From NCBI RefSeq assembly GCF_900111275.1, contig NZ_FOGR01000002.1, positions 496,001-560,000 of the forward strand: a DNA stretch of 64,000 nt, given 5' to 3'. The translations under genes were made by a program, and so were the position numbers. The stretch comes from Rhizobium sp. NFR03 (GTDB lineage: Bacteria > Pseudomonadota > Alphaproteobacteria > Rhizobiales > Rhizobiaceae). Positions 41,233 through 59,934 of the stretch are shown here, one piece after another. Each line of letters opens with the position of its first letter. Within the stretch, counting starts at the first letter, position 1. The notes under the pieces were generated by a model. It had not been told where the DNA came from. It saw only the letters and a program-made list of their open reading frames with translations, and made no database searches.

Positions 41233-42258
41233 ATGAGCCTTAGATCGATCGATGCCAGCTTGACGAAGGACAGCCTGACCGGAGACAGCGCCATTCTCGA
41301 CTCCATCGGACGGTCGCTGGCCACCACGGTCGATGGCGTGAACGCGCTGGCCACGAGCTTTGCCAATGATGCCGTCTTCGCGCGCAATCTCGCCGATGCG
41401 GTGAAGCTGATTGCCGATCGCAACGGTCGCGTTGTTGTCTCGGGTGTCGGCAAGAGCGGTCATATCGGCCGCAAGATCGCGGCGACCATGGCTTCTACGG
41501 GCACATCTGCCTATTTCGTGCATCCAACGGAGGCGAGCCACGGCGATCTCGGCATGATCACCTCCGATGATTTGGTCATCCTGCTTTCCTGGTCGGGGGA
41601 AACCGTGGAGCTCGGCAACATGCTGGCCTATGCCCAGCGCTTCAAGGTGCCGGTGATCTCGTTGACGTCGAACCAGGACAGCCTCCTCGCCCGCCATTCC
41701 ACCGTGCCGATCGTCATTCCCAAGGTCGTCGAGGCCTGCCCGCACGGGCTGGCGCCGACCACCTCCGCCCTGCTGCAACTGGCTGTCGGTGACGCGCTGG
41801 CGATCGCGCTTCTCGAACGTCGCGGCTTCTCGCCCGAGGATTTCAAGACCTTCCATCCCGGCGGCAAGCTCGGCGCGCAACTCCTCCTCGTTGGCGAACT
41901 CGCCCATCGTGGTGACGCCATGCCTATCCTGCCGCTCGGCGCGCAGATGGGGCAGGCGCTGATCGAGATGTCCTCCAAGGGCTTTGGCGTGGTCGGTGTG
42001 GTCGATACGGACGGCAAGCTGGCTGGCGTTATCACCGATGGCGACTTGCGCAGGCATATGTCGGACGGTCTTCTGCAACAGACGGTCGAGGCGATCATGT
42101 CGGTCAAGCCGCGTGTGATCTCGCCGCAGCTTCTCGCCAGTGCCGCCATGCAGGTCATGCAGTCGAGCAAGGTGACGGTGCTTTTTCTGGTCGATGAAAC
42201 CGAAATGCCGGTCGGCATCCTGCACATTCACGATCTGCTGCGCGCTGGCGTCGCTTAA
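41233..42258 (+). CDS. kpsF: Arabinose-5-phosphate isomerase KpsF/KdsD
   Basis: 341 residues: a SIS (sugar isomerase) domain (about 50-190) with GVGKSGHIGRKIAATMAS and the catalytic-site segment HPTEASHGDLGMI, followed by two CBS domains (about 210-340). It interconverts ribulose 5-phosphate and arabinose 5-phosphate, the first step to CMP-Kdo for LPS and Kdo-type K antigens. Its TAA overlaps the stop of the convergent rkpJ-like gene at TTAA. The position beside the rkp cluster suggests a capsule-dedicated paralogue. Confidence 0.93.
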   Translation: MSLRSIDASLTKDSLTGDSAILDSIGRSLATTVDGVNALATSFANDAVFARNLADAVKLIADRNGRVVVSGVGKSGHIGRKIAATMASTGTSAYFVHPTEASHGDLGMITSDDLVILLSWSGETVELGNMLAYAQRFKVPVISLTSNQDSLLARHSTVPIVIPKVVEACPHGLAPTTSALLQLAVGDALAIALLERRGFSPEDFKTFHPGGKLGAQLLLVGELAHRGDAMPILPLGAQMGQALIEMSSKGFGVVGVVDTDGKLAGVITDGDLRRHMSDGLLQQTVEAIMSVKPRVISPQLLASAAMQVMQSSKVTVLFLVDETEMPVGILHIHDLLRAGVA

Positions 42259-43562
42259 GCCTGAGATCGCGGTCGCTTTACAGGGCGCTTGCGCGGGGGC
42301 GGATCGATGAACGCATCGGGTTCGTTGACATCGCGTGCATGAAGACGCGCAGCGATGGCATCGGCGCCGGCGTCCGTCCCCGCTTTGGAGTAGAAGTTTC
42401 CCCGAACCTGAATGGCGGCGGCGACGAGCCGAAAGAAGGCCGTGCAGACATCCGCGTCGGGCAGGCGCGGGGCACGCCAAAAGGCGTCGAGCGGCTGTTG
42501 ATCCGTCAGCCTGTCTATATCGAACATCGCGACACCCAGCACCTTCACCGGCTTGCGCTGTTGAAGGGCATGCAGCCCCACGGTGGAGTTGACGGTGACG
42601 ATGCCCATGCTGAGGCCGATCAGGGCAGCGAGGTCTCCGCCATCCAGAAAGGAGACGCGTGAACCCAGTTCGAGCGCCGCAGCCTTTCGTTCGACCGTTC
42701 CGGCCCAATCGACAAGGCCGTTGTCGAGCGGATGAATCTTTACCACGAGCCGTGCGTCGGGTGTGGCGAAACGCGCAAAGGAGGTCATAACCTCATCGAT
42801 CGCCTGCTGCTGATCGTGGTAGGGCGAATGCGCCCGAAGCTGGAAATCCGTCTGGAGTTGAAGCGGAAAGATGAACAGAGGGCCATGTCCTCGGGCGAGA
42901 GCCGAGATCGTGGCCAGCGCCTCTCGCAGGCGCTTCTTCTCCCGGATGAGCCTCAGGATCCAGCCGCCATACTCTACCAGAGGATGATAGAGCGCGTGGC
43001 GGCGATAATGCGGATAGAGAAACCACAGGAAGGCATTGGGCAGATTATAGAGGAGATCGTAGGCCGCCTCTGCCAGAAACGTCTGGGCGTACCGGCGCGT
43101 CCAGTCGGGCTCGGGCAGGTCCCGCGCGGCCCGCAGGATATGGTCTGGATCATCCGGGAAATGCGAGTTGGTGGACATGCCATCGCGCTCGAGCGTCAGC
43201 CAGTCCGGTCGCAGGTATCCCATCTCTATCACGTAGATATCGATTGATCTTTGCTTCGCTGCCTCCGTGGCAACCCGGTGGTACGGGCGCTCCTCGCCGA
43301 GAAGGACGAGATCGGTCACGCGGTGGCGCGTCAGAAAATCGCCGATCCAGCTCGCCCAAGCCTCAGAGTGCCCACGGAAAGAATATCCGCCGTGCCGGCG
43401 CCAGAAGATCCGGTCTCCGATATTCAGGTTCACGCGGAGGCACGCATGCCCTTTTGCTTCCAGCCGGTCTGCGATCTTCATGAAAAGGTGTGATGACGGC
43501 CCCTCGAGAAACAGAAAGACCCGCTGCACTGTGCCGGAAGCAGACGTGGCGTCCATCGTCAT
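42255..43562 (-). CDS. rkpJ: Capsular polysaccharide synthesis/export protein, RkpJ (KpsS-like)
   Basis: 435 residues. Resembles KpsS/capsule synthesis proteins: an N-terminal FLFLEGPSSHLFMKIADRLEAKGH segment, FWRRHGGYSFRG, then FIFPLQLQTDFQLRAHSP and KIHPLDNGL, ending with a hydrophobic/charged tail. KpsS-family enzymes add Kdo residues to a lipid to build the capsule linker. In S. meliloti rkpJ is required for K-antigen production. Its start is 6 bp after the rkpI-like stop, the last gene of the rkp series; it overlaps the kpsF stop by 4 bp. Confidence 0.85.
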   Translation of the reverse strand: MTMDATSASGTVQRVFLFLEGPSSHLFMKIADRLEAKGHACLRVNLNIGDRIFWRRHGGYSFRGHSEAWASWIGDFLTRHRVTDLVLLGEERPYHRVATEAAKQRSIDIYVIEMGYLRPDWLTLERDGMSTNSHFPDDPDHILRAARDLPEPDWTRRYAQTFLAEAAYDLLYNLPNAFLWFLYPHYRRHALYHPLVEYGGWILRLIREKKRLREALATISALARGHGPLFIFPLQLQTDFQLRAHSPYHDQQQAIDEVMTSFARFATPDARLVVKIHPLDNGLVDWAGTVERKAAALELGSRVSFLDGGDLAALIGLSMGIVTVNSTVGLHALQQRKPVKVLGVAMFDIDRLTDQQPLDAFWRAPRLPDADVCTAFFRLVAAAIQVRGNFYSKAGTDAGADAIAARLHARDVNEPDAFIDPPPRKRPVKRPRSQA

Positions 43563-43568: not shown

Positions 43569-45173
43569 CTAGTCCAGCTCATCCTTGTGAAGGTTCGCAT
43601 GCTTCAGCATCGCCTTCAGCAGGTTCCAGGGCTCTTCGTTGCGGGGAAATACGGGCCCCTGCTGCAGAGTGCGGGCCGATGCCAGCGGCGTGATGAAGTA
43701 GTCGGTGCGCGGGTCCGGAAAGGGATCGGCGAAGGATTTCAAAAGCGGCGCATGGTCGCCGTAGAAGACAAGCCAGACGGGCCGGTCGAGCTTGTTGAGA
43801 TGATCCACCAGCTGCCCGAGCGCTCTGTCCGACTGCTGCAGGATCTCCAGATAGATGCTGACCGGGTCGCTGTAGCCGGGAACACGCCCAGGCTCCCACG
43901 GGCCGTGATTGGCCATGGAGGCGACGAAGATGAAGCTGCCCTTGTCGTCTCTCTGCTTGTCCACCGCCTCGATCACCTTGCGCGTGAGCGCGGCGTCGGA
44001 AACATAGGGCCCGTCGCGGGCCGGATCGTGATCGAACGCATCCAGCATCGTCATCTCCTCGAAGCCGAGCAGAGGCATTGCCTTGTGACGCAGAAAGAAC
44101 GTCCGATCGTAGGGGTGGATGAAGTGCGTCCGCCAACCCGCCTTCTTGAGCTTCGTCGGCCAGACCACATCGGTATAATGCCGCGCCCGGAGATAGGGGT
44201 AGCTGGCATCCACGTGGATGTCGTCGGGCTGCAGCCCGCTCAGAACGGCGAATTCGGTGCGGAGCGTATATCCCCCCTCGAACACCGTCGCGATGCGCCC
44301 CCATTGGGTGGAAAGCTTCTGCAAACGGTCGATGGTTGGAAGGCGGATGGAGTTGACGCCGTAATGGCGCATGTCGAGGAAGGACTCCGACTGCCAGACG
44401 ACGACCAGCGGCGCCTTGTTCTCCGCATCATGGCCGATGAGGTCGTTGACGGCGGCGAAGAAGGCGCCGGAGAGCTCGTTGACGATCTTCTCCCGGCGAA
44501 CGCCGAGCCAGATGATGAAGTGGAACACGACGGAGGAGAACGTGCCGAAACGGACGGTGCTGACCTTGGCATCGGGTTTGCCGACCAGCCGCTGCACGAG
44601 ATCTGCCGTCGGCGTGTTGACCGGCCCCCAGAACAGCGAGATCCACGGCAGAGCGGCGGCGATGACCATCACCACGACATAGAAGGGCTCGGCGTGGTCG
44701 GGGAGCACGTTCGGCTCGAAATACATATAGAGGCCGGACACGCCGAAGACGTAGCCAAAGGCGACGATCCAGAAGACGATATTCAGGGAGTTCGCGTAGA
44801 AGATCGACTTGTACTTGAAGACATCCGCGACCAGCGCAATGTCGGAAAACACCAGCGGCTCGCGGATGAACCGGAACTTGGCGCGCGAGATCGCGGTGAA
44901 GATGATGAAAAAGCTCATGCAACCGGCGGCACCATAGAGCGGGCGCCAGGAGATGGCGAAGAAGAACGCATAGATGATCCCGACGACGGGCATCCGGGCG
45001 ATACCGTCGCGCAACGCGTGCCACAAGGTTCTGTTGGGGGGCATGTTGCGGCGGCGTTCGCGCGCGGGCAAAGCGAACCTGTCGGTGAACCATGCCACGA
45101 AGAACGAGAGCATGAAGCAGACGACGATCAACGAAACGGGATGGTCGTGAAGCTGGAGCGATGTCGACGGCAA
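43569..45173 (-). CDS. rkpI: LtaS-like membrane sulfatase/phosphotransferase, RkpI
   Basis: 534 residues: four or five N-terminal transmembrane helices (about 10-240), then a periplasmic alkaline-phosphatase-fold domain. Visible metal-site motifs are WQSESFLDM (about 260), the catalytic-Thr region GGYTLRTEFAVLSGL (about 302-315) and YGDHAP (about 470). LtaS-type enzymes transfer phosphoglycerol, and relatives transfer phosphoethanolamine, from phospholipids. In the rkp cluster it may decorate or link the capsule. It is co-directional with rkpH (193-bp gap, with a dyad CCTGAATCG / CGATTTCAGG at 45239-45261). Confidence 0.87.
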   Translation of the reverse strand: MPSTSLQLHDHPVSLIVVCFMLSFFVAWFTDRFALPARERRRNMPPNRTLWHALRDGIARMPVVGIIYAFFFAISWRPLYGAAGCMSFFIIFTAISRAKFRFIREPLVFSDIALVADVFKYKSIFYANSLNIVFWIVAFGYVFGVSGLYMYFEPNVLPDHAEPFYVVVMVIAAALPWISLFWGPVNTPTADLVQRLVGKPDAKVSTVRFGTFSSVVFHFIIWLGVRREKIVNELSGAFFAAVNDLIGHDAENKAPLVVVWQSESFLDMRHYGVNSIRLPTIDRLQKLSTQWGRIATVFEGGYTLRTEFAVLSGLQPDDIHVDASYPYLRARHYTDVVWPTKLKKAGWRTHFIHPYDRTFFLRHKAMPLLGFEEMTMLDAFDHDPARDGPYVSDAALTRKVIEAVDKQRDDKGSFIFVASMANHGPWEPGRVPGYSDPVSIYLEILQQSDRALGQLVDHLNKLDRPVWLVFYGDHAPLLKSFADPFPDPRTDYFITPLASARTLQQGPVFPRNEEPWNLLKAMLKHANLHKDELD

Positions 45174-45366
45174 ACGAAACCCTTTGATACCGCGGCGTGA
45201 GCGCCGTCACGTCGTGATCGAGTTCTACTGCATAATTCCCTGAATCGGAATCGATTTCAGGATCAAACAGTACAGCAGCGAGAAAATGCGACGATGAACC
45301 CGGATGCGTTATCTCTAGCGCACCCAGCCTCGCTGTAGAGACAATCGCGCCGGGTGACAAGCATTG

Positions 45367-46170
45367 TCATCGTCCTGCAACCTTGCGTACGCGGCGAATC
45401 CGGCGATCGAAGTGCCAGTCTATGAGCGGACGGACGAGCGGGGCGAACCTGCCGAGCGCCAGGAGCGTCAGCCCGAAATAGACCTCGAAACGTCCTCGGT
45501 CGAGGGCCCGTACCATCTGGTTTGCAACACGCTCCGCGCTCCATGGCCTGACCTGACCCATGATGACCTCGGCTTCCGCCGGGCGTGCGGTTCGCTCCCG
45601 CTCAAGTTGCGGCGTTTGCGTATCGGGAGGGAAGCAGATGGAGACGGTGACGCCTTTTGGCCGGCCTTCCGAGCGCAATGCCTCGGCGAAGCCGCGCAAC
45701 GCGAATTTCGATGCGCAGTAGGCGGCGTATCCGGGTATGCCGATCAGCCCCGCGCCGGAAGAGACCAGCATGATGCGTCCCGTTCCCCGCGCCTGCATCT
45801 GCGCATAGACGGCGCGGACGGCGTATACGGAGCCGGAGAGGTTCACGGCGATCTGGCGATCGAAATCGGCTTCGTTCTGATCTTCGAAGCGGGAGGGTTC
45901 GACGATACCGGCCGAACAGATAAGGATGTCGCATGGCCCGGCCGCAGCCTCGCAAGCCCGGATCGCCTTGCTGACGGCACCCGCATCCGCAACATCCGCC
46001 GGGGCGATATGAACGCGTCCGTCGCCCGCGTTGCCGAGTGCGGTCCGCGCAGCTTCAAGCGCTGCCTCGCCACGTGCGATCAACGAAACGGAATAGCCGC
46101 GATGGACGTAGATCCGTGCGACGGCGAGGCCGATGCCGCTCGATCCGCCGGTGATGATGACGTGAGTCAT
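45367..46170 (-). CDS. rkpH: Short-chain dehydrogenase RkpH, resembling 3-ketosphinganine reductase
   Basis: 267 residues. Rossmann motif TGGSSGIG (7-14), catalytic Ser137/138 and YxxxK as Tyr151-Lys155. The substrate loop reads FPPDTQTPQLERE (180-193): PPDT.TP is the hallmark of 3-ketodihydrosphingosine reductases (KDSR), which reduce the 3-keto group of sphinganine precursors, and the next segment RTARPAEAE also echoes human KDSR. A hydrophobic C-terminal stretch (LTLLALGRFAPLVRPLIDW) could anchor it to the membrane, as in KDSR. It follows rkpG by 52 bp. Confidence 0.9.
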   Translation of the reverse strand: MTHVIITGGSSGIGLAVARIYVHRGYSVSLIARGEAALEAARTALGNAGDGRVHIAPADVADAGAVSKAIRACEAAAGPCDILICSAGIVEPSRFEDQNEADFDRQIAVNLSGSVYAVRAVYAQMQARGTGRIMLVSSGAGLIGIPGYAAYCASKFALRGFAEALRSEGRPKGVTVSICFPPDTQTPQLERERTARPAEAEVIMGQVRPWSAERVANQMVRALDRGRFEVYFGLTLLALGRFAPLVRPLIDWHFDRRIRRVRKVAGR

Positions 46171-46222
46171 GATGCGCCCGGCGTTACGGACGCGTGCGTT
46201 ACCGAAGGCCGTCGTGCCGGTT

Positions 46223-47635
46223 TCACCGGGCCGCCAGCAATTTCATCATCTGCTGGATGTCGATGGAGGCCAGCCCGAAATTACGGTCGGTGAGGTCCTT
46301 CAGCTTCTCCGCGGTCAGCGCGACCGTCTTGCGGATCTGTGCTTCGGTATGTTCGCTGGTGATGAAGAAGCGCAGGCGTGCCAAGCCCTCGGGCACGGCA
46401 GGGTGAATGATCGGCAGCGCGTTGATGCCGGCTGCCAGAAGGTCGTTCGAGAGTTGCACGGCCCGCAGGCTGTCGCCGACGAGAACCGGCACGACGGAGA
46501 AGCCGGCGCTCAGTCCCGTGTCGAGGCCGGCCTCCTGCGCGAGCTTCAGGAACAGCGTTCCGTTGCGCCTGAGGGCGGCAGCTCGCTCCGGCTCACTCTC
46601 CAGTATGTCGAGGCTGCCGAGGGCGGCAGCTGTCAGCGCAGGCGCGAGGCCGACGCTGTAGACGAACCCTCCGGCGGTTGCCTTCAGTACGGATGCAAGT
46701 GCCGCGTTGCCGGCGATGTAGCCGCCGCAGCTCGCCGTCGTCTTCGACAGCGTGCCCATCCAGATATCGACCTCTTTCGAGTCGATTCCATAATGCTCGA
46801 ACGTGCCGCGACCACGACGGCCGAGGATGCCGAGGGAGTGCGCTTCGTCCACCATCAGCCAGAAGCCGTATTCGGCCTTGAGCTTGATGATGGCCGGCAG
46901 ATTGGCCACATCGCCATCCATCGAATAGATGCCTTCGACGATCACGAGGATGCGGCGGTAGTCTCCGGAAACCGTTCGCAGGACCGTGTCGAGGTCATGG
47001 GCGTCGTTGTGCTTGAACAGTCGGCGCGTGGCGCCGGAGAGCTTTATACCGGCGAGGGCACTGTTATGGATGAACTCGTCATGGACGACGAGATCCTTCG
47101 GGCCGAGCAGGCAGCTGATCGCCGCGACATTGGTCAGGTAGCCGCTGACGAAGCATACGGCGGCATCCACGCCGTAGAAACGGGCGATCCGCTCTTCCAG
47201 TTCTCCATGGACCGGACGTTCCCCTGCCACGAGGCGGCTGGCCGACGCTGAAATACCGTAGGTTCCGATGGCCTCGTTGGCCTTTTCCAGCACATGGGGG
47301 TGCCGGTTGAGACCAAGATAATCATAGGAGGCAAAGTTGATCAGCTCACGACCGTTGATGATGGTGGTCGCGCCTGCCGCCGTTGCATGTGCACGGTAGA
47401 AGGGATTGTCGATGCCGAGCTGTGCGCTGGCTGCCTCCTGCGTCTGCACCTGCTTGTACTCCGGCAGGTCCTCGAAACGCATTTGTGTCCGACGCACCGG
47501 CGTCGGCGCCTCGCGTTCGGACCGCGCCATCCGGTTGCGCTCGGATGACTGATGCGTGTTGCGCATCCGGTCGAGCAGGTTTTCCCGCAGGCTGCTGTTC
47601 ATCTTGGATGCAGCAGGTTGCCGATCGTCGCTCAT
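46223..47635 (-). CDS. rkpG: Alpha-oxoamine synthase RkpG (KBL/AONS/serine palmitoyltransferase family)
   Basis: 470 residues, PLP fold type I. The N-terminal ~70 residues are an extra charged region; the catalytic domain has the family motifs DEAHSLG (263-269) and the Schiff-base Lys298 in GTLSKTTASCGGYIAG, plus NFASYDYLGLN. Family members condense an acyl thioester with an amino acid with loss of CO2 (glycine, alanine or serine). Its ATG overlaps the rkpA stop by 4 bp (ATGA), so it is translationally coupled to the synthase. It probably releases the RkpA-bound acyl chain. Confidence 0.92.
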   Translation of the reverse strand: MSDDRQPAASKMNSSLRENLLDRMRNTHQSSERNRMARSEREAPTPVRRTQMRFEDLPEYKQVQTQEAASAQLGIDNPFYRAHATAAGATTIINGRELINFASYDYLGLNRHPHVLEKANEAIGTYGISASASRLVAGERPVHGELEERIARFYGVDAAVCFVSGYLTNVAAISCLLGPKDLVVHDEFIHNSALAGIKLSGATRRLFKHNDAHDLDTVLRTVSGDYRRILVIVEGIYSMDGDVANLPAIIKLKAEYGFWLMVDEAHSLGILGRRGRGTFEHYGIDSKEVDIWMGTLSKTTASCGGYIAGNAALASVLKATAGGFVYSVGLAPALTAAALGSLDILESEPERAAALRRNGTLFLKLAQEAGLDTGLSAGFSVVPVLVGDSLRAVQLSNDLLAAGINALPIIHPAVPEGLARLRFFITSEHTEAQIRKTVALTAEKLKDLTDRNFGLASIDIQQMMKLLAAR

Positions 47636-50600
47636 TGGCTTGCAACTTTCTCCGGAGACGTCGCCTTGTGGCGCTGTGTCAGTTCGCTCAGGATCTTGTC
47701 TTCCGTCGGCGGCTCTTCCTCGTCGCTCCCCTGATCGCGCTTGCTGACCTTGTCGTACAGCTTGTGCGCAACATCCCCGACAGTCGTGTTGTCGGCGACG
47801 CCTGAGAGCGGCATGTCGAAGCCCGTATTTTGCTGGAAGCTGATGCCGAGTTCCACGGCCATCAGGCTGTCCAGGCCGATTTCCTTCAAGACCTTGTTCC
47901 GGGAGATCGTATCCTTGGAAACACGCAGAATTGCGGCGATTTCGTTCGCCACAAGCTCATAAAGCAGGTCTTCGCCCTCCTGTGGCGATTTGCCCTCGAT
48001 CATGGCAACGAGATCCAGCGTGCTGCCGTCGCTGCTACCGGTGTGCTGGTCGGCGGTGCGCATAACGACCTCGAACAGCGGCTGGCGAACGACCGGCAGG
48101 TTGCGAGCTGCCGCCCAGTCGAACTCGGCAATCATCCCGGTTGCCGCATTCACCGTTCCCGGGTCGGCAACGATGTAGGCTTCCACTTGATCAAGCGCTG
48201 CCTGTGCCTTCAGGGCCGTCTTGCCGATGCGTTTCGACAGAATGTCGTTGACGTCGGTATTCTCAGCCAGATAGCCGGTGTCGGCGATCGCGCCAAAGCC
48301 GATGGCAAGACCTTTCAGCCCCGCTGCCCGCCGCGCCCGTGCCAGACCTTCGAGATAACCGTTGGCCGCGACATAATTGCCTTGACCAGGATTGCCGACC
48401 AAGGTCGTCGCCGACGAGAACAGCAGGAAGATGTCGAGATCGTCCTTCCGCGTCAGGTTGTCGAGAACGGCGGCACCCTTTGCCTTGGTGTCGATGACGG
48501 GACGGTTGCGCGCCCGGTCGAGATTGGAAATCAGCGCATCATCGAGCACCATGGCGGCGTGAATGACGCCCTTCAGCGGTCCATCGCGCCGCAGCGTGGC
48601 CAGCATCGCAGCGGTCGCATCGACATCGGTGATATCGCAGGCGTGAACACTGGCAACGACGCCCTTGGTTTCCCAGCGCTGGATGGCGTCCAAGGTGTCG
48701 GTATCGGCCACACCGCGACGGGTTGTCAGCGCGATCCTGCGCGCACCTTTTTCCACGAGCCAGTTGGCTGCGGCAAGGCCGAAACCGCCGATACCGCCGA
48801 CCACGAGATGCACGCCGTCACCCGATACCGTCATCCGCGCGCCGGCCCCGGCCGAAACGGAATCCCGACCTGATACGGGCGGGAGCACAACGATTTTTCC
48901 GATATGCCCGGCATTCTGCATCAGGCGGAAAGCATTGCCGATTTCATCATGCGCAAAGGCGCGATACGGCAGCGGTACGAACTTGCCTTCTTCGAACAGC
49001 TGTCCGACTTCGGCAAAGATCCGCTTCGTCAGGTCCGGCTGGTTGACGAGCAGCTGGTCGGCGTCGATGCCGAAATAGCTGATGTTCCGACGGAACGGTC
49101 GTAGCCCGATCTTGCTGTCGGCAAAATAGTCGCGCTTGCCGAGTTCCAGGAAGCGGCCGAAGGGTTTGACCAGCGACAGGCTCTGCTCCATCGCCTCGGC
49201 AAAGAGCGAATTCAGAACGAGATCGACACCTTCGCCATGTGTTACCGCGCGGATGTCCGAGACGAAGGACAGCGAACGCGAATCGAAGACGTGATCCGCA
49301 CCCAGCATCGTTAGGAAGTGACGTTTCTCCCGAGTGCCCGCGGTGGCAATCACCTTGGCACCGGCATGCTTTGCCACCTGCAGCGCTGCCAGACCGACAC
49401 CGCCGGCCGCGCCATGGATGAGGATCGTTTCCCCGGCGCGGATGCGGCCAAGTTCGATCATCGCGTAATAGGCCGTCAGGAAGGCGACGGGAACTGTGGC
49501 AGCGGCAACCGGGCTGACCGTTTCCGGCAGCCGGGCAATACCCGCGCGCGAGACGACGGCATGCGTCGAGAACGCGGCCGAAGCCATGGCCATGACGGGA
49601 TCTCCGATCGACAGATCCGTGATCTCGCTGCCGAGCGCGACCACATGGCCGGAAAGCTCCATGCCGATCGTCGCACCGGCAAAACCGTCTTCCAGTGCCT
49701 CTTCCGGCAGAAGACCCATAGCCCACATCACGTCGCGGAAGTTGAGGCCGGTGGCGGCGACTTCGACGACGACATCCGTCGGGCCGGGTTTCGGCAGGCT
49801 TGTGGCTTCCCAAGCGATACTGCCGACCTGCGAGGCCACCCGCTGGCGGATGGTCGCCGCCTCAAACGACCGGGTCTGGCGGAGGGTGCCTTCCACCGGG
49901 CCGGGAACGGCACGAATTTCCTGCGCGCGACCGTCGATGACGGCCCATTCGCGGTTCTCGTGTCGGCTCTCGATCAGTGTAGCGGCGAGGGTAAGCGCCG
50001 TTTCGATCTCGGCAAGGTTCGCAGCGGGAGCATCGACCATGTGAAGATCGATCACGTCGTACTCGTTTTGAAGAACGCGGCAGAAGGTCCACACGCCGCT
50101 GTTCAGCGCCGATGTCGCAGCGACCGGCGATCCGCCCGGGGCAACCAGTGCCAAGCGGGGGCGCTCTTCGCCTGCAGGTTCGCGATCTGCATGAAACGCG
50201 CGCACGGCTTCACCAAATGCACCCAGCGACAGGACGATGGTCTGCAAGTGCTCGGAATCACCGAGCGTATCGGTGGATGGTACAGGCGACAGGTAGACCG
50301 CGCGGATGGCGCGCCCCTGAAGACCCTTGAACGCGTCGAGAAGCCGGGCCTTGTCGGCCTCGTTTTCACCCGTGAGCGTCACGGGAACAATTACACAGTC
50401 GGAAATGGAAGACGGCAGAGCGGAGACCGCGGGCGCCATCCCGATTGCGAGTATCGGGTGATGCGACATCGCCGCAACGTCCTGCGAGGCTGCGTCGGGT
50501 GCCGAACGGCCGGCTCTTGCTTCCAGGGCGATCAGCGCGCCATAGGCACCATCGCGATCATCGACGACGATGTCGGCGAGCCTCAGGTCGGCAAGACATT

Positions 50601-53600
50601 TCTCCCACTGCAGCGCGGTGGCAAACCGGCCGATCGGGAACTCGGGCGATTGGCTTCGCGCAAACCATCCGTCCGTGAGGCCATAGGCGAAATCGCTGAA
50701 TACGGTCGGCGCTGTCGTCGCGCCGATGAAGGCGCCGCCCGGGCGCATGGCGTGACCGAGAATGCCGCGAACGGCCGGATCTTCGTCCACCAGAACAAAC
50801 AGCATGTCGGAGGCGCTGACGACGATATCGACCGTCTTGACGGACGTGAACGCGTCCTTCTTCAGGACGGAGACCCGCGCATCGTCCTCGAACGCGATTT
50901 CGAGGTTTCGTTGCGCATTGTCCCGCGGCTCGACCACGGCAAGGCTTGCGCCATGGCGCACGGCAAGAGCCGCAAGGCGCCGCGTAAAGCTGGCAGAGAC
51001 CGTACCAAGCTCGATGATGCGGAGGCCCGTCTCCATGGATGACAAGGCCCGTTCCAGTGCCGCATAGACCATGTCGGTCCGCTGGCGCGTGGCCAGCGAA
51101 TGGACGGCCTGATGATCGAGCGTTGCTTCGCTGATGAAGCCGGTCGTCTGGACGACGGCCTCCTCGCCGCTCTGGCCGGACAGTTCCGCAGCATAGAGCG
51201 CCGACAAGCGATCGAGCGCTTCCGTATAGGTATCGTTGATCAGCACGGCCTCGACGGCGCGCGCGGCATTTTCGGCGTAGAGTTCCTTCAGGATTTCACT
51301 GACCGGAGGCAGCGTGAAATCCGCCGTAATCGTCCAGCGATTGTCCGTGTGTTCGGCAAGACCGGCGTCTTCGAGAACGACGAGGCAGTTGCTGAGGAAG
51401 CAGCGGAAACCGACATCGCCGGGCAGAAGCCGCATGTCCACCTGGTTGCCGCCGCGCGCGAGCTTCAACGCGATCTCGTGGCAGGCCCGGTAGATGGCCG
51501 CGTTGAACAGAAGCGTCGTGTTGTCGATTCCTTCGCCGCTGTCGGCTGGCAGGAGGACGGCTGGCAGCGGCTTCGACTGCGCTGGCTGCATGGCGGCAAG
51601 CGTTTCCGAGGGCACCGCCTCATAATGGTAGGACAGCATGTCCAGCGTCTTGTGCTGGCGCAGATAGGTCCGCCGGAAGCGGCAGTCGTCGAACGCTGCG
51701 ACGAGAGTGCCGTCTTCACCGTAGAAACGGAACCTGGCCTTGATCGAATTTGCGCTGACGCGCTCCACCTCGGCGATTGCGCGCTTGATCACCTGACCGG
51801 AGGCTGCAAGCCGCACCGAGCCGAAGCGAACGGGAATATAGGGTGCGCCGCCAGCTTCGCCGGTAAAGCGGCCAAACAGCGCCACCATGCCGTGAAAGGT
51901 CGCATCGACGGAGATCGGGTTGAGGCTGTAGGACACGAAGGGGTGACCCGCTTCGGACGGCGTCTTCAGCTCGACATCAATGAACTTGTCACCGAACGCG
52001 ACGGCCTTCGACATCAGCTGGAATCTCGGGCCATAGTCCAGACCGAACTGCCGTGCCGTCTCGTAGGCCTTCGCCGCAAGGACGGTCTCGGTCTTTTCCA
52101 GACCTTTGAAATCCGGGCGGACATGGTCGTTACGGGCGATCGGCTTGCGGCAGCGGGCGACCGCATGCACCGCCCAATCGTCTTCCGTCAGGCGTTCGCG
52201 CGAACGGATCTCGATGTCGCCGGTCTCCGGGGACAGAAGCGTGGAGAGTTCCATGATTCTGTTATCGCCGAGTTCCAGAGGCCGCACGATTTCAAGATTG
52301 GTGATCTCGACCTCGCCGGTGCCATAGAACTGCTGCGCCGCGGAGATGGCGATCTCGATGAACCCGCTGCCCGGAAGGATGGCCTTGCCATCGACGACGT
52401 GCTCGGCAAGATCCGGAAAGAGATGCCCGTCGATATGGTTCTTCCAGCTGCCGCCGTTGAGATCGGCACGCCAGCCGGCAAGGGTATAGGGCACGCGGGA
52501 GCCGCGGCCGAAGAGGTCGGCGCTATCGCTGGTGACGGCCGGGCGAAGTTCGGTCGGTTCGAACGGCAGCAGCGGCAGGCGTACGGACGCATTCCTCTTG
52601 CCGAAAAGGCGGGTCGAGTTACCGTCGGCACCGTGCGCCATGGCGCGGGCCATAGCGCGTGAAACCGGATCGATCCCCTTGGCCGCAGCCTCCTTCAGCA
52701 AGGTCGGAACGACGATACCCGGCGCGGTCGCCGCCTTGATCGTTTCCTTCACGTAGGACGACAGAATCGGGCGGGGCGAAATTTCGAGGAACAGCGTGCA
52801 GCCGAGAGCAATGGCCGCTTCCGTCGCCGCCTGGAAACGAACGGGCTCGCGCACGTTCTTCCACCAATAGTCGACATCCAGCTGGGATCCGTCGAGGCGC
52901 TCGCCCGTGACCGTCGAGAGATAGGCGATTTCCGTGGTGCGCGGCGCCAGATCCGGAATATCGCCCATGAAGGCCTTCTTGGCCTGATCGATGATCGGGT
53001 GATGGAACGGGTAGTTGATGTCGAGGATCTGGACCGGAATCTTCGCCTTGCGGGCGGCGTCCCGGAACGCGGTCACCTCGGCCACGGGGCCGGAGATGGT
53101 GACGGAGTTGCGCGCATTGATCGCAGCGACACAGACGTTGGCGATGCCATGCTTTTCTGCAAATGCCTGCGCGGCTTCGTCGCCGAGCATGACCGCGGCC
53201 ATGGTGCCCTTGCCGGCCAGCAGATCCTGATGCAGGGAGCGCTTGGCGACGATTGCCACCGCATCCACCAGCGACAGGGCGCCGGCGGCGTAAGCGGCAG
53301 CGATTTCACCGACGGAATGACCGAAGACGGCTGTCGGCTTGATTCCCATGGCGACGAGCGAATCGGACAGGGCTGCCTGCACAGCAAAGAGCAGCGGCTG
53401 GGCGATCTTGGTGTCTGTCAGCTTCTGGGCGAGATCCGGATCGGTCAGAAGCGTTGCAAGGTCGAGATCCGCGTGGAACTTGAACAATGCGCTGATCGAG
53501 GTGAAGCACTGGCGGAAATGCAGGTTCTCACGGAAGGCATCCGCACCCATGCCGGCCCATTGCGAGCCGTTTCCGGAAAACACGAAGGCGACCTTCGCAT

Positions 53601-55164
53601 CGCGCGTGACGGCTTCGCCGGTCTCGCCAAGATCGGAAGCCGGCGCTTCGAGATGGCTCGAAATGGCGCGGATGATGTCTTCGGGGTTCTCGCTGCGGGC
53701 TGCGAAGCGATGACGCATGGCCGTGCGGTTTGCGCCGGATGCGGCGATGATGGCGCGGGCTTCCTCGCGGGAGGCCTTTGCGAAGGATGACTTGTAGGCG
53801 CGCAGAAGCTCTTCGAGACTGCTCGCCGTGTGGGCGCTCGCCATGAACATATGGCCGGCAGCCGCGTTCCGCTGGCGGTCTTCGGATACGGGCTCGGGAT
53901 CGGAAATCACGACATGCGCATTGGCGCCGCCGAAGCCGAAGGAATTGATGCCGGCTAGACGCGCGCGCTTGCCGCGCAGAAGCTCGATCGGGTTGGCCGT
54001 GACGCGCACGTTCAATCCGTCGAAATCGATGTTCTCGTTTGGCGTATCGAAATGCAGCGATGCCGGGAGATAGTTGTTCTCCAGCGCCATGACCGCCTTC
54101 AGCATGCCGAAGAGGCCGGATGCAGGTTCGGTGTGCCCGATATTCGACTTGATCGAGCCGATCGGCACCGGTGCGCGCCGGTTCGTGCCGATGACCGTGC
54201 CGATCGACCAGACTTCCGCGGGGTCGCCGACCTTCGTGCCGGTGCCATGGCCCTCGACGAAGGCGACCTGATTGGCATCGATATTGTTGCCTTCGTAGAT
54301 CGACCGCAGCAGGGCTGCCTGGGATTCGCGCGACGGCAGCGAAATGCCGTTCGTGCGGCCGGCCGAGTTGGTGCCGGTCGCGACGATGCGTGCGTAACTG
54401 CGGTCCTTTTCCTGCCGGGCCCGGTCCGACCGGCGCAGGACGAACACGACGCCGCCTTCGGCACGCACATAGCCGGCGCCATCATTGTCATAGGCGCGGC
54501 AAAGGCCTTCGGGAGACAGCATGCGTGCCTGCGCAAAGCCGACGAAGGGCAGGGGATGGGCGAGAATGTTGATGCCGCCGACGATGGCGGTATCGATCTC
54601 TCCGGCGTTCAAGGCCCGCATCGCCTGATCGAGCGCGACGATGGAGGACGAACAGGCCGTATCGATCGTCATCGACGGGCCGCTGAGTCCGAAGATGTGG
54701 GAGATACGGTTGGAAATGACGGACAGCGTATTGCCGGTCATGAAGTAGGGGCCGGCGGCAGCCGGGTCCTCGACCGTCAGGTTGGCATGGTCGAGGCTCG
54801 ACGCGCCGACATAGACACCGACATTCTCGCCCTGAAGCGATGTCAGCGAGATGTTGGCATCCTCGATCGCCCGCCATGCCAACTGCAGGAGAACGCGCTG
54901 CTGCGGATCCATGTACATGGCTTCGCGCTGCGACATGCCGAACGCGGCGGGGTCGAAACCGTAGATATCGTCGATCACGCCGGCGGCAAACGAATAGGTC
55001 TTGCCGGGGTTGCCCATTTCGGGATGCCAGAAGCGGGCAAGGTCCCACCGGTCCGATGGAATCCGCGTTACCGCACATTTGCCTTGCCGCAGAAGCCGGA
55101 AAAGCGCTTGAGGCGAATCAGCTCCCGGAGCGACGCAGGCGCGCCCTATGATTTCTGCTGTCAT
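47632..55164 (-). CDS. rkpA: Multidomain polyketide/fatty-acid synthase RkpA
   Basis: 2510 residues, a type I iterative synthase. KS with Cys171, His306, His344 (DTACSSS, EGHGTGT, SNIGHTE); AT with Ser617 in GHSVGE and a malonyl-type YPFHHP; DH with His922 in HVVDGKAILPG; a methyltransferase-like region (about 1330-1500) with a degenerate motif I (IIELGTVSASF); ER with GLNFRDVMW (about 1806) and HGAAGGVG; KR with GGIGG at 2123-2127; ACP with Ser2433 in GLDSLMAVELG. No thioesterase is present. It makes a fully reduced acyl chain, in S. meliloti needed for K-antigen synthesis. Coupled to rkpG. Head gene of the rkp series, with an AT-rich upstream region. Confidence 0.93.
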   Translation of the reverse strand: MTAEIIGRACVAPGADSPQALFRLLRQGKCAVTRIPSDRWDLARFWHPEMGNPGKTYSFAAGVIDDIYGFDPAAFGMSQREAMYMDPQQRVLLQLAWRAIEDANISLTSLQGENVGVYVGASSLDHANLTVEDPAAAGPYFMTGNTLSVISNRISHIFGLSGPSMTIDTACSSSIVALDQAMRALNAGEIDTAIVGGINILAHPLPFVGFAQARMLSPEGLCRAYDNDGAGYVRAEGGVVFVLRRSDRARQEKDRSYARIVATGTNSAGRTNGISLPSRESQAALLRSIYEGNNIDANQVAFVEGHGTGTKVGDPAEVWSIGTVIGTNRRAPVPIGSIKSNIGHTEPASGLFGMLKAVMALENNYLPASLHFDTPNENIDFDGLNVRVTANPIELLRGKRARLAGINSFGFGGANAHVVISDPEPVSEDRQRNAAAGHMFMASAHTASSLEELLRAYKSSFAKASREEARAIIAASGANRTAMRHRFAARSENPEDIIRAISSHLEAPASDLGETGEAVTRDAKVAFVFSGNGSQWAGMGADAFRENLHFRQCFTSISALFKFHADLDLATLLTDPDLAQKLTDTKIAQPLLFAVQAALSDSLVAMGIKPTAVFGHSVGEIAAAYAAGALSLVDAVAIVAKRSLHQDLLAGKGTMAAVMLGDEAAQAFAEKHGIANVCVAAINARNSVTISGPVAEVTAFRDAARKAKIPVQILDINYPFHHPIIDQAKKAFMGDIPDLAPRTTEIAYLSTVTGERLDGSQLDVDYWWKNVREPVRFQAATEAAIALGCTLFLEISPRPILSSYVKETIKAATAPGIVVPTLLKEAAAKGIDPVSRAMARAMAHGADGNSTRLFGKRNASVRLPLLPFEPTELRPAVTSDSADLFGRGSRVPYTLAGWRADLNGGSWKNHIDGHLFPDLAEHVVDGKAILPGSGFIEIAISAAQQFYGTGEVEITNLEIVRPLELGDNRIMELSTLLSPETGDIEIRSRERLTEDDWAVHAVARCRKPIARNDHVRPDFKGLEKTETVLAAKAYETARQFGLDYGPRFQLMSKAVAFGDKFIDVELKTPSEAGHPFVSYSLNPISVDATFHGMVALFGRFTGEAGGAPYIPVRFGSVRLAASGQVIKRAIAEVERVSANSIKARFRFYGEDGTLVAAFDDCRFRRTYLRQHKTLDMLSYHYEAVPSETLAAMQPAQSKPLPAVLLPADSGEGIDNTTLLFNAAIYRACHEIALKLARGGNQVDMRLLPGDVGFRCFLSNCLVVLEDAGLAEHTDNRWTITADFTLPPVSEILKELYAENAARAVEAVLINDTYTEALDRLSALYAAELSGQSGEEAVVQTTGFISEATLDHQAVHSLATRQRTDMVYAALERALSSMETGLRIIELGTVSASFTRRLAALAVRHGASLAVVEPRDNAQRNLEIAFEDDARVSVLKKDAFTSVKTVDIVVSASDMLFVLVDEDPAVRGILGHAMRPGGAFIGATTAPTVFSDFAYGLTDGWFARSQSPEFPIGRFATALQWEKCLADLRLADIVVDDRDGAYGALIALEARAGRSAPDAASQDVAAMSHHPILAIGMAPAVSALPSSISDCVIVPVTLTGENEADKARLLDAFKGLQGRAIRAVYLSPVPSTDTLGDSEHLQTIVLSLGAFGEAVRAFHADREPAGEERPRLALVAPGGSPVAATSALNSGVWTFCRVLQNEYDVIDLHMVDAPAANLAEIETALTLAATLIESRHENREWAVIDGRAQEIRAVPGPVEGTLRQTRSFEAATIRQRVASQVGSIAWEATSLPKPGPTDVVVEVAATGLNFRDVMWAMGLLPEEALEDGFAGATIGMELSGHVVALGSEITDLSIGDPVMAMASAAFSTHAVVSRAGIARLPETVSPVAAATVPVAFLTAYYAMIELGRIRAGETILIHGAAGGVGLAALQVAKHAGAKVIATAGTREKRHFLTMLGADHVFDSRSLSFVSDIRAVTHGEGVDLVLNSLFAEAMEQSLSLVKPFGRFLELGKRDYFADSKIGLRPFRRNISYFGIDADQLLVNQPDLTKRIFAEVGQLFEEGKFVPLPYRAFAHDEIGNAFRLMQNAGHIGKIVVLPPVSGRDSVSAGAGARMTVSGDGVHLVVGGIGGFGLAAANWLVEKGARRIALTTRRGVADTDTLDAIQRWETKGVVASVHACDITDVDATAAMLATLRRDGPLKGVIHAAMVLDDALISNLDRARNRPVIDTKAKGAAVLDNLTRKDDLDIFLLFSSATTLVGNPGQGNYVAANGYLEGLARARRAAGLKGLAIGFGAIADTGYLAENTDVNDILSKRIGKTALKAQAALDQVEAYIVADPGTVNAATGMIAEFDWAAARNLPVVRQPLFEVVMRTADQHTGSSDGSTLDLVAMIEGKSPQEGEDLLYELVANEIAAILRVSKDTISRNKVLKEIGLDSLMAVELGISFQQNTGFDMPLSGVADNTTVGDVAHKLYDKVSKRDQGSDEEEPPTEDKILSELTQRHKATSPEKVASQ

Positions 55165-55717
55165 CTTTTATCGAACGCTCTGAACTGTCTGCAGTGTGAC
55201 TTGCTGATTGCACTTGGGTCCCGAAAAATCAATCAGAACTTCTCCTGGATGGCGGCCCCTACCTAGGAACCTGGATCACTTGGTTCGCTGTACGTTATAT
55301 ATAACTAAATAACAAATCTTCGATATATTGGTTGTGCCTTCAACTTTATGGCGTAATGGCGCCTGCGGAGATGAGTACAGCAACAAGCTAGCCCGTTTGT
55401 CGATAGACTCATTTCATTTTCTCCCGGCCACAGAAGAACAACGCCCTCCTTTGCATGAATGGAGGCTGAATGTTCTTAATATCGGCGCTGGATGACCCGA
55501 AAATGTGCAGGTTTTGAGGCCTGCTGGATGACGGCGACCCGTAAGGGGGCGGTGCCTGTCGCCTCTTCATTCTTACCGATACCGAGGCGCGTCGGTGCGC
55601 TGGTTAGCAGAAGATGGGTCCAAATGCCATAGGAGTAAGGGCTTCGTACGGTGTCTGCCGCAACGCATGATGCGAGATCGATCGTGGAGATCAGCAAAAT
55701 ACGCGTCTCCCTTGCAA
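55165..55717 (-). other. Long AT-rich intergenic region upstream of rkpA
   Basis: A 553-bp gap between the rkpA start and the kup stop. Bases about 55270-55360 are strikingly AT-rich (TACGTTATATATAACTAAATAAC), in contrast to the high-GC genes, and probably hold the rkpA promoter and possible regulator sites. No confident -35/-10 pair could be fixed, and no gene or RNA is recognised. The left part contains short dyads (for example CCTCC/GGAGG near 55446-55465) of unclear meaning. Confidence 0.5.
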
Positions 55718-57619
55718 TCAGATCGTCACCTGTTCGCCCAGTTCCACAACCCGGTTTGCCGGCAGCCGGAAGTAGTCGGAAGGATCGATGCCGATGCCCG
55801 CGAGCGCGATGTAGAGGCGATCCTGCCACTTGGGCAGACCCGAGTTCGGGTCGCTGATCAGGTTGCGTCTTCCGACATAAAACGACGTCTGCATGATCTC
55901 GAACTTGAAACCCGCTTTCTTGCACAGGCCCAGCGCCTTGGACACATTCTGGTCGTCCATGAATCCGAATGTGATCTGGATTCGAAGAAAGCGCTCGGAA
56001 ATCCGGATGAGTTCGATGCGCGATGCAGGCGGCACATAGGGCGTATCCGCGGTGCGAACGGTCAGGATGACGTTCTGCTCGTGCAGGACGTGGTTGTGCT
56101 TGATATTGTGCAGCAGCACGGCCGGCGTCTTGTCGGGCACGCTGGTCAGAAACACGGCCGTGCCGGGAACGGCGACGGGGGCGTGATCGGACTTCTTCTC
56201 GATGGACCGGATGAAGGTTTCAAGCGGGATGTCGTTGCGCGCAGTCTTCTCGCGCAAAATCATCGAGCCCTTTCGCCATGTCCACATGATGACCATGATG
56301 GTGGCCGCCAGCAGCACGGGCACCCAGCCGCCGTCATGGATCTTCAGAAGGTTTGCGGCGAGGAACACGGTTTCCAGAAGCAGCAACGGCAGGAGGATCG
56401 CACCAGCAGCAACGGCGCTCCATTTCCAGACAGAACGCAGAAACTGGAATGCCATGAGGGTGGTAACCACCATGGCGCCGGTGACAGAGATGCCATAGGC
56501 GGTCGCCAGCGACTCCGAGTCCCCGAAGGTGAAGATGAGCACGAGAACGCCGACGAAGAGCAGGGTGTTCACGGCGGGAACGTAGATCTGCCCCGTATTC
56601 GTCTCCGAGGTGAAGGTGATCTGCAGGCGTGGGAGGAACCCGAGATGGACCGCCTGCCGCGCCAGCGAAAAGGCGCCGGTGATAACGGCCTGGCTGGCGA
56701 TGATCGTGGCGGCCGTTGCCAGAAGCACGACCGGCAACAGCGCCCAGTCCGGATACATCAGGTAGAACGGGTTTTCCGCCGCCTCCGGATGCGCCAGGAC
56801 GAAGGCGCCCTGGCCGAGATAGTTGAGCGCCAGCGACGGGAAGACCAGGATGAACCACGCTACCTGGATCGGCTTGCGGCCGAAATGACCGAGATCGGCG
56901 TAGAGCGCTTCGGCCCCGGTGACGGTCAGGAAAACGGCGCCGAGCACGATCAGGCCGACGAAGCCCGCATGCGTGATGAACCACACGGCGTTGACGGGAT
57001 TGAGAGCTTCGAGGATCGTATAGTCGTCACCGATATGCAGGATGCCCCCCCAGGCCATGGCAAGAAACCAGAGAATGGTGATCGGTCCAAAGAAATTGGA
57101 GACGGCGGCGGTACCGCGAGACTGGACAGCGAAAAGGCCCACCATCATGGCAGCCGAAATCGGCAGCACGTAGTCACCGAGCGCGGGCGTCACGAGCTTC
57201 AGCCCTTCGACGGCGGACATGACCGACAGCGCCGGCGTGATCATGGCATCCCCGATGAACAGGGCGGCACCGATAATGCCCGCAAAGAACAGAACCGGCA
57301 TGTAGCGCCCTGTCTTCTTCATCAGCAAAGCGAGAAGCGACAGCGTGCCGCCTTCGCCGTCATTGTCGGCACGGAGAAGAAAGAGGACGTATTTGAAGGT
57401 GACGATGATCGTCAGCGTCCAGACCATCAGCGAGATGAGGCCGATGACCTCGTTATGGCTGATGCCGTCATGCGAAAAGGGGCGAAGCGCTTCGCGAAAG
57501 GCGTAGAGCGGGCTGGTCCCGATGTCGCCGTAGACGACGCCGATGGATCCCATGAGCAGGACGAGGAACTTCTTCGTGCCTGCGGTGTCCTGCTGGGCAG
57601 GGCCGGCGGATGCGGTCAT
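55718..57619 (-). CDS. kup: Low-affinity potassium transporter Kup
   Basis: 633 residues, the usual Kup/HAK/KUP length, with twelve hydrophobic helices in the first 460 and a cytosolic C-terminal domain. The start of the family is seen in [25 protein letters not shown], followed by [13 protein letters not shown] and [10 protein letters not shown]. It is a proton-coupled K+ importer. The ATG at 57619 is divergent from nasT. No paralogue is present in the window. Confidence 0.95.
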
Positions 57620-57889
57620 GGAATGTCAGACTTTCCTTCACGTCTCGCACCGGGCAAGACACGTTGCGTGCGCAAACGGCTCGATCGAGATGCTTCGTCC
57701 GAGACGCGAAACGCCGTCGGTCACGGCGCCTGCGAGCCCAGACGGACATTGTATCCCGGCCGTTTCGAACACACCGTTACAATTATTGTCCGGTCGCGAG
57801 CAAGCACGAAGACGCATCGCTGTCCTGCGCGCCCAAATGTTGCAGCGGGACCGCTTGCGCATTCTGTTGCGCTGCACAAGAATAGGCGC

Positions 57890-58477
57890 ATGCGCCACGC
57901 CGATCTCACGATCCTCGTTATCGATGAAAATGCCATCCGCTCTTCGATCATCGAGGAGGGCCTGCGCGAGGCCGGGCATCTGAAGGTGACGGTCATCCAC
58001 GAGGTCAATGGCGTTGCCCGGATCATCGAGACACTGAAGCCGGACGTCATCATCATCGACCTCGAGAACCCGAACCGGGACATGATGGAGCATCTCTTCC
58101 AACTGACCCGAACTGTCAGTCGCCCGATCGCCATGTTCGTCGATCGCTCGGATACGGCTTCGATCGAGGCCGCCGTCGATGCCGGGGTTTCCGCCTATAT
58201 CGTCGATGGCCTGCGCAAGGAGCGGGTGAAGCCGATCCTCGACATGGCCGTCAGCCGGTTCAATGCCTTTTCGAGGCTGCAGCGTGAACTGGCGGAAGCG
58301 AAATCCGCTCTCGAGGAGCGCAAGGTGGTGGAACGTGCCAAGGGCATCATGATGAAGATGCGCGGGCTCTCGGAGGAAGAAGCGTTCACCCTGTTGCGGC
58401 AGACCGCCATGAACGAGAAGAAGAAGATCGCCGATATCGCCCAAAGTGTCGTGACGGCGGCGGGTCTGCTGACATGA
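57890..58477 (+). CDS. nasT: Nitrate-regulatory antitermination protein NasT (ANTAR response regulator)
   Basis: 195 residues: a pseudo-receiver N-terminal domain (ILVIDENAIRSS, VIIIDLENPNRD) and a C-terminal ANTAR RNA-binding domain (about 140-195; LEERKVVERAKGIMMKMRGLSEEEAF). NasT binds two-hairpin RNA in nitrate-operon leaders and stops termination; without nitrate it is held by NasS. The ATG at 57890 begins the receiver directly; the longer frame runs through antisense kup sequence. It is followed 43 bp later by nasS, and the target leader lies at 59962-60135. Confidence 0.93.
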   Translation: MRHADLTILVIDENAIRSSIIEEGLREAGHLKVTVIHEVNGVARIIETLKPDVIIIDLENPNRDMMEHLFQLTRTVSRPIAMFVDRSDTASIEAAVDAGVSAYIVDGLRKERVKPILDMAVSRFNAFSRLQRELAEAKSALEERKVVERAKGIMMKMRGLSEEEAFTLLRQTAMNEKKKIADIAQSVVTAAGLLT

Positions 58478-58520
58478 CCGCTGCGTTCTGCCGCTACCCA
58501 AACGATCGGAGGATATGCCC

Positions 58521-59792: not shown

Positions 59793-59934
59793 TAGTCGCT
59801 GCCGTTTTGCGATGCACGATTTTCGCTGGATTGCGCGCAGTTGGCTAGAAGATAAGCAAGAAGAATATTGGTTATCTTTCATGCACTATAGAAATTACGG
59901 TTTATATTCATACAGTTAATTGATTTAAAGGCAT

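Follow-up and report, generated by a model that had tools for sequence, protein, structure and literature searches.

A proposed polyketide-derived sphingolipid foot for the K-antigen capsule encoded by the rkp-1 genes of Rhizobium sp. NFR03

The DNA analyzed here is a window of 64,000 nucleotides from Rhizobium sp. NFR03 (RefSeq assembly GCF_900111275.1, contig NZ_FOGR01000002.1, positions 496,001 to 560,000 of the forward strand), which carries the genes rkpA, rkpG, rkpH, rkpI and rkpJ of a rkp-1 capsule locus. Our results somewhat favor the reading that these genes encode a five-step line making the sphingolipid foot of the K-antigen capsule. RkpA, an iterative reducing polyketide synthase (PKS), would build a long saturated acyl chain on its own acyl carrier protein (ACP) domain, and RkpG would take the chain from the ACP and condense it with serine under loss of CO2 to 3-ketosphinganine, which RkpH would reduce to sphinganine. 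RkpI would then move glycerol phosphate from phosphatidylglycerol to the hydroxyl of sphinganine, giving phosphoglycerol-sphinganine, a look-alike of lyso-phosphatidylglycerol, and the KpsS-like RkpJ would put the first 3-deoxy-D-manno-octulosonic acid (Kdo) on the glycerol, whereupon the capsule would be built on that lipid and exported. We hold the formation of sphinganine by RkpA, RkpG and RkpH to be probable, the transfer of glycerol phosphate by RkpI to be an even call, and the addition of Kdo by KpsS to phosphoglycerol-sphinganine to fall slightly short of even. Counterparts of the first two steps were shown for the homologous SgaAB, and KpsS was shown to act on (lyso-)phosphatidylglycerol. 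In NFR03, the pathway is suggested by the sequence-based family placement of RkpG, RkpH and RkpI and by gene neighbourhoods, from which we infer every step in this organism, and the last two steps in any organism.

The gene rkpA (47632..55164, minus strand) encodes a single-module type I PKS of 2510 amino acids, which is probably iterative. Pfam identified ketosynthase (KS), acyltransferase (AT), dehydratase (DH), enoyl reductase (ER) and ketoreductase (KR) domains and one ACP, and neither a thioesterase nor a methyltransferase (MT) domain was found in RkpA at E ≤ 0.001. The KS and AT domains (52681..55152, minus strand, residues 5-828; Pfam and motifs) contain DTACSSS (168), EGHGTGT (304), KSNIGH (339) and GHSVGE (615). 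Further active-site motifs are HVVDGKAILP (922), HGAAGGVG (1917), GGIGGFG (2123) and YVAAN (2264), followed by GLDSL (2430) in the ACP, the last domain of the protein (47764..47955, minus strand, residues 2404-2467; Pfam PP-binding). The stretch between DH and ER holds IIELGTVSASF at 1383, which resembles an S-adenosylmethionine motif with the usual glycines missing, and its motif and spacing make the designation as a degenerate MT a fair one. An earlier note made from the DNA letters had described RkpA as KS-AT-DH-degenerate MT-ER-KR-ACP without thioesterase, and with this basis for the MT the Pfam and motif data agree. RkpA is 72% identical to the Sinorhizobium meliloti protein and 34-41% identical to the PKS of Pseudomonas sp. 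TMW 2.1634. As a single-module reducing PKS with a terminal ACP and no thioesterase, it has the build of the type represented by SgaAB of Pseudomonas fluorescens MYb115, for which the main text of a recent paper reports the production of C24-28 sphinganines (PMC12134224, Nat Commun 2025).

The frame of rkpG (46223..47635, minus strand) shares 4 nt (47632-47635) with that of rkpA, in keeping with translational coupling. It encodes a pyridoxal phosphate-dependent alpha-oxoamine synthase (AOS) of 470 amino acids, predicted to be of the SgaB type and proposed here as a serine acyltransferase. The active site shows GTLSK with K298, DEAH at 263, and the motifs DEAHS and HPAVP, so that the earlier assignment as an AOS with Lys298 and DEAH, coupled to rkpA, was confirmed. 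Among NCBIfam models, bioF scored best (357 bits, cut-off 426 bits), followed by a relative of 2-amino-3-ketobutyrate CoA ligase (KBL; 317 bits) and by serine palmitoyltransferase (SPT; 208-304 bits, cut-offs 500-670 bits). Since all scores lie under the curated cut-offs, RkpG is annotated as a generic aminotransferase or ligase and named BioF/KBL-like.

In a tree of 64 rows picked from the sequences fetched, RkpG fell into a clade of 29 rows (support 98/97), of which 15 are of the rkp type and the other 14 come from beta- and gammaproteobacteria plus Trichlorobacter. This clade includes the PKS-linked AOS of Pseudomonas, Burkholderia and others, and it is separate from KBL, BioF, 5-aminolevulinate synthase (ALAS) and canonical SPT; a phylogenetic check asked for by the earlier note thus turned out in its favor. 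SgaB is represented in the tree by close Pseudomonas relatives rather than by the MYb115 sequence itself, and through these RkpG, encoded next to the PKS, lies inside the SgaB clade; the AOS of P. fluorescens PS691 is 51% identical to RkpG over 441 amino acids. The S. meliloti protein is 82% identical over the matched part. The SPT rows form a weakly supported single group (76/28), and row L209, which exceeds the bioF cut-off and was taken as BioF, sits beside ALAS on a long branch.

Four other identities were considered for RkpG and rejected. Its score and separate clade speak against a canonical SPT, and tree and cut-offs against an ALAS. A KBL is excluded by the score under the cut-off, the position outside the KBL clade and the lack of the GTLGKA and PVVP motifs, and a BioF by 357 versus 426 bits, DEAHS and HPAVP in place of DDAHG and PPTVP, and the position outside the BioF clade. 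As DEAHS occurs in just eight of the 15 rkp-type rows against 13 of the 14 beta- and gammaproteobacterial ones, and GT(L/F)SK is common to the RkpG clade and BioF, AOS motifs were not relied on. The only two AOS genes of the NFR03 genome at the limits used are rkpG and an ALAS gene, and no SPT over the NCBIfam cut-off was found there. A weak RkpG relative (G360, L028; L189, L228 region) carries a TAA within its match.

In four loci from other sources (L054, L060, L069 and L070), including a Planktothrix plasmid and a Streptomyces plasmid, an AOS is naturally fused to a PKS that bears an ACP or to a portion of such a PKS. In the RkpG tree, three of their AOS domains branch immediately outside the RkpG clade, the fourth at another place. 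The ACP precedes the AOS in all four PKS-AOS or ACP-AOS fusion proteins, which supports a direct hand-over from PKS carrier to AOS; the acyl chain would thus be passed straight from the ACP of RkpA to RkpG.

Directly after rkpG lies rkpH (45367..46170, minus strand), encoding a short-chain dehydrogenase/reductase (SDR) of 267 amino acids, which motifs, trees and PDB profile searches lead us to propose as a 3-ketosphinganine reductase (KDSR). The residues pointed out earlier are present, namely Y151 and K155 in YCASK (151-155) and PPDTQTP at 181-187. The PPDT.TP motif is retained in S. meliloti RkpH, and PPD occurs in none of 29 SDR paralogues of the NFR03 genome, examined out of 51 matched places that include RkpH itself. 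Three more loci (L040, L054 and L062) encode a related PPDT.TP SDR close to an AOS. The motif is missing from the fungal KDSR TSC10 (PDB 8jat) and present in other KDSRs, and in view of TSC10 its use as a KDSR hallmark, as in the earlier note, is not safe. A 59-row tree placed the RkpH proteins of four Rhizobiaceae together with four SDRs encoded in loci that contain other AOS genes (98/98). When TSC10 was included as the only KDSR (60 rows), it fell inside the RkpH clade (100/99) on a long branch of 1.74, with the 29 SDRs of the own genome outside; this grouping, too, came out in favor of the earlier note. A profile of the eight RkpH and AOS-locus sequences ranked TSC10 first among PDB chains (6.5e-46; the next chain 2e-44). 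Built from the four RkpH sequences only, the profile puts TSC10 33rd in the PDB, and TSC10 is not within the best 60 PDB matches of RkpH by itself, so that it is no longer taken as the best PDB match of RkpH.

The idea in the earlier note that the lipid anchors the K antigen requires two further genes, rkpI and rkpJ, which lie outside 45367..55164. The first (43569..45173, minus strand) encodes a membrane protein of 534 amino acids with a phosphoglycerol transferase domain of the LtaS/GacH type, as judged from PDB matches and invariant residues. It was identified as rkpI by the match of a published S. fredii rkpI quantitative PCR primer at 44735-44716, with one mismatch and none expected by chance. 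The S. meliloti rkpI frame is missing from the PLSDB gene table and was located by sequence comparison. A search with the single RkpI sequence matched LtaP and GacH at 1e-6, and a 21-row profile matched GacH (2.6e-36), LtaP (2.5e-21) and LtaS (9e-13 and 8e-12), with sulfatases reaching just 0.009 and no phosphoethanolamine transferase among its 10 PDB hits at E ≤ 0.01. Likely active-site residues are invariant in the 21 rows (E263, T303, R305, H353, R362, N422, H423, D473 and H474), and presumably the nucleophile and metal ligands among them correspond to those of LtaS. RkpI thus combines the sequence match and the conserved catalytic residues of an LtaS-type phosphoglycerol transferase. The second gene, rkpJ (42255..43562, minus strand), encodes a putative KpsS-like beta-Kdo transferase of 435 amino acids (Pfam Capsule_synth, 1e-94; NCBIfam KpsS model 202 bits versus a cut-off of 600), proposed as the enzyme adding the first Kdo.

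We examined the distribution of these genes in 398 genomes (RkpG at E ≤ 1e-80; for strong RkpI, E ≤ 1e-25 and a full-length match); the RkpG and RkpI searches covered equal numbers of genomes with identical labels, which were taken as one set. RkpG is encoded in 25 genomes, strong full-length RkpI in 14 and both in 11 (Fisher p 1.7e-12, kinship ignored). One more genome, G243, has a full-span RkpI at 9e-19 and lies outside the 14; if it is counted, p is 6.1e-12. All 11 genomes with both belong to the 16 in which RkpG reaches E ≤ 1e-120; the nine remaining RkpG genomes have no strong full-length RkpI (p 0.001). The three RkpI genomes without RkpG (G473, G486 and G496) all encode a canonical SPT over the cut-off, so that each of the 14 strong-RkpI genomes encodes either RkpG or a canonical SPT. 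SPT-like scores of at least 456 bits were obtained in just five of 58 sampled classmates; four of these five were scanned, and all were over an SPT cut-off. The pairing of RkpI with SPT in three genomes without RkpG is suggestive only. In 13 of the 14 genomes, including the three that lack RkpG, a gene for KpsS or KpsC is found no more than 2 kb from RkpI; in the DNA examined of the remaining one, G493, neither was found near RkpI. Given this co-occurrence and neighbourhood in the 14 genomes, RkpI accompanies KpsS and a predicted source of sphingoid bases. Three capsule loci without rkpA and rkpG (L281, L282 and L283) have an RkpI homologue about 1.2 kb or less from KpsS and a canonical SPT in the genome; these capsules are perhaps fed by ordinary sphingolipids.

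Gene neighbourhoods were further compared in 80 named loci, the best of 140 relatives from a contig scan with the AOS of TMW 2.1634, a sample that leans to that type. In 77 of them the AOS has a neighboring PKS; RkpI is found in 42, an SDR in 35 and KpsS or KpsC in 43. Both RkpI and the SDR are encoded in 32 loci, always next to each other on the same strand. KpsS/KpsC is missing from 10 of the 42 loci with RkpI, where RkpI lies at the edge of the DNA examined, and is found in 11 of the 38 loci without RkpI. Where 9 kb or more of downstream DNA was available, 24 of 26 Pseudomonas loci have an RkpI homologue and 24 have KpsS/KpsC; L089 and L096, Pseudomonas loci with enough downstream DNA, lack RkpI, KpsS/KpsC and the SDR altogether. 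Many of the loci L097-L131 from Achromobacter, Bordetella and relatives keep the PKS and AOS, and some also KpsS/KpsC, with no RkpI within about 10 kb; their head-group enzyme may be encoded elsewhere or be a different one.

In TMW 2.1634, the PKS and AOS genes are followed on the opposite strand by genes for a dioxygenase, a KpsC-like protein, a GNAT protein, a lipoteichoic acid (LTA) synthase, an SDR and a KpsS-like protein, then by a second KpsC-like gene and a phosphotransferase gene, with KpsF, KdsB and KdsA beyond. Counted in locus tags, the spacing of PKS, AOS and SDR is the one printed for sgaA, sgaB and sgaC of MYb115, which suggests the same layout there. According to the main text of PMC12134224, sgaAB of MYb115 also gives forms heavier by 154 Da, judged by the authors to be most likely phosphoglycerol sphingolipids; 154.003 Da corresponds to C3H7O5P, glycerol phosphate minus water. 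We tentatively propose, and with less confidence than for the rkp pathway, a widespread class of Gram-negative capsules standing on PKS-made phosphoglycerol-sphinganine instead of phosphatidylglycerol, in which RkpI and LTA-synthase homologues, acting as sphinganine phosphoglycerol transferases, would make the KpsS acceptor and the phosphoglycerol sphingolipids of MYb115 would be the bare foot.

Several observations weigh against the five-step pathway. Among the 16 genomes with strong RkpG, RkpI is partial in one (G358) and was not found in four (G437, G189, G341 and G434), and G437, from the same family as NFR03, has rkpA-G-H. RkpI was also not seen in 22 of the 60 named loci that span 20 kb or more, many of these 22 being from Achromobacter or Bordetella. 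SPT lineages are common in Alphaproteobacteria, and the three genomes with RkpI and SPT represent two families, of which f28 has SPT elsewhere. The catalytic domain of RkpI is predicted to be periplasmic from hydropathy and the positive-inside rule, whereas KpsS works in the cytoplasm; glycerol phosphate transfer before Kdo addition therefore needs the lipid to be flipped inward, or else RkpI acts later. Passages in the literature cite the S. meliloti 1021 capsule as phospholipid-anchored, and an ordinary diacylglycerol anchor in this strain would count against the Kdo step. For rkp, the open-licence literature yielded no results on lipids, enzymes or mutants.

The periplasmic prediction and the cited phospholipid anchor also favor the strongest of the competing explanations. 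In it, the product of the trio would be a sphingoid lipid, free or in the membrane, on which the export of the capsule or the fitness of the envelope depends, while the capsule would stand on ordinary (lyso-)phosphatidylglycerol and RkpI would decorate lipid or polysaccharide in the periplasm. This would agree with the known use of (lyso-)phosphatidylglycerol as acceptor by E. coli KpsS, as described in PMC7694667, and with the action of MYb115 sphingolipids on a host, reported in a main text in which 'capsul', 'lipoteichoic' and 'sulfatase' do not occur (PMC12134224). We nevertheless consider it unlikely, as the trio sits with kps and Kdo genes in widely spread loci and KpsS or KpsC accompanies RkpI so closely in the 14 genomes. 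No E. coli-type capsule is known to need a PKS.

Two less probable explanations concern single enzymes of the trio. If RkpG used glycine or alanine, a 1-deoxy or 1-desoxymethyl amino alcohol would result, on which no C1 head group is possible; the scores under the cut-offs of all AOS models, with bioF best, and the mixed motifs of the 15 rkp-type rows (DEAHS in 8, DDAHG in 3) leave it a slim chance against the 51% identity to a close SgaB relative, the PAVP and DEAHS motifs as in SPT, and the almost exclusive use of serine by MYb115 SgaB, which the main text of PMC12134224 reports from assays with acyl-CoA surrogates. This preference makes serine, and thus sphinganine, likelier by analogy than alanine and a 1-deoxy product; the earlier note had left both products open.

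It is similarly improbable that the 3-keto amine made by RkpA and RkpG is not reduced by RkpH, with RkpH acting on a sugar or another lipid. The SDR family is promiscuous, and the RkpH-only profile does not single out TSC10. Moreover, the SDRs of the Pseudomonas loci (presumed SgaC, which the main text of PMC12134224 names as the presumed KDSR) form another clade, with YMR226C as best PDB match. As the two SDR clades are separate in both trees, orthology of RkpH with the Pseudomonas SDR was rejected, and different lineages seem to have exchanged one reductase for another. The position of TSC10 within the RkpH clade and the related SDRs near other AOS genes argue for RkpH as a KDSR, the best reading though not settled, and the earlier view of the trio as a producer of a long-chain amino alcohol is supported.

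The order rkpA, rkpG, rkpH, rkpI, rkpJ and then a convergent kpsF is that of the S. meliloti rkp-1 region. The kpsF-type gene, found in the same position in S. meliloti, encodes an arabinose-5-phosphate isomerase of Kdo supply (41233..42258, plus strand; TIGR00393, 290 bits, over the cut-off). At a distance of some 190 kb from the rkp genes, the contig carries KpsC-, KpsT-, KpsD-, KpsE- and KpsM-like capsule export genes. Upstream of rkpA, a kup potassium transporter gene is found on the same strand (55718-57619 of the window), where S. meliloti has a rkpU-like export-protein gene. The region 58515-62380 encodes two NMT1-like binding proteins of the nitrate/taurine type and an ABC permease, an ordinary uptake operon. 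Long frames opposite or across real genes (44428-45360, 45364-46293, 55595-58477 and others) are shadow open reading frames of high-GC DNA; a Pfam search with the frame 44428-45360 gave no match.

Reviews of the K antigens of rhizobia, without which some legumes are not infected, treat the lipid made by rkp-1 as a named unknown; passages in two of these reviews (PMC4881576 and PMC3557214) state that rkp-1 makes a lipid carrier or anchor and leave its chemistry unstated. If this lipid is a sphingoid base, rhizobia without a canonical SPT would become sphingolipid makers, the odd association of PKS with capsule genes in alpha-, beta- and gammaproteobacteria would find an explanation, and the probable phosphoglycerol sphingolipids of MYb115 would gain a candidate enzyme and a role. 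It would also be a new kind of capsule anchor. No paper joining the PKS-AOS sphinganine pathway to capsules was found in the open-licence literature, outside which subscription papers mostly fall.

Among known systems, canonical bacterial SPT (Caulobacter, Sphingomonas) shares fold and reaction type with RkpG but forms a separate clade. RkpI has the domain and conserved residues of LtaS, LtaP and GacH, and its identity is about 26-27% or less even to gammaproteobacterial RkpI homologues. The wcb capsule locus occurs in Burkholderia and relatives, and its wcbR is called orthologous to rkpA in the literature; the Burkholderia loci fetched likewise contain an LTA synthase, a PKS and an AOS. They differ by an LpxC-like deacetylase between PKS and AOS, mostly followed by a GNAT protein (L066, L067 and L143-L150), hinting at a different lipid modification. 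Fumonisin synthesis uses a reducing PKS without thioesterase, release by an AOS and then a KDSR-type reductase. The comparison with this order, made earlier and by description rather than by sequence, holds as an analogy, whereas the real relative is the bacterial SgaAB pathway, and rkp differs by the degenerate MT of RkpA and a capsule context in place of a mycotoxin. The fumonisin/sphingofungin pathway (FUM1, FUM8 and FUM13) is also named in the main text of PMC12134224, which counts 6,101 homologous clusters.

The rkp-1 regions of S. meliloti and S. fredii have identical genes in identical order, and S. meliloti differs in having rkpU, where NFR03 has kup, upstream of rkpA. With SgaAB(C) of P. 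fluorescens, the rkp genes share a single-module PKS, an adjacent AOS and a nearby SDR, and RkpG falls into the clade of Pseudomonas AOS with that layout, its orthology being drawn through close relatives. The rkp reductase comes from another SDR clade, nearer to TSC10, and directly follows the AOS. The PKS-AOS sphinganine pathway is thus of a kind already known since 2025, and to it we propose to add three new elements: an identity for the lipid made by rhizobial rkp-1, a reductase of the pathway that resembles TSC10, and a coupling of the pathway to capsule assembly through RkpI and KpsS.

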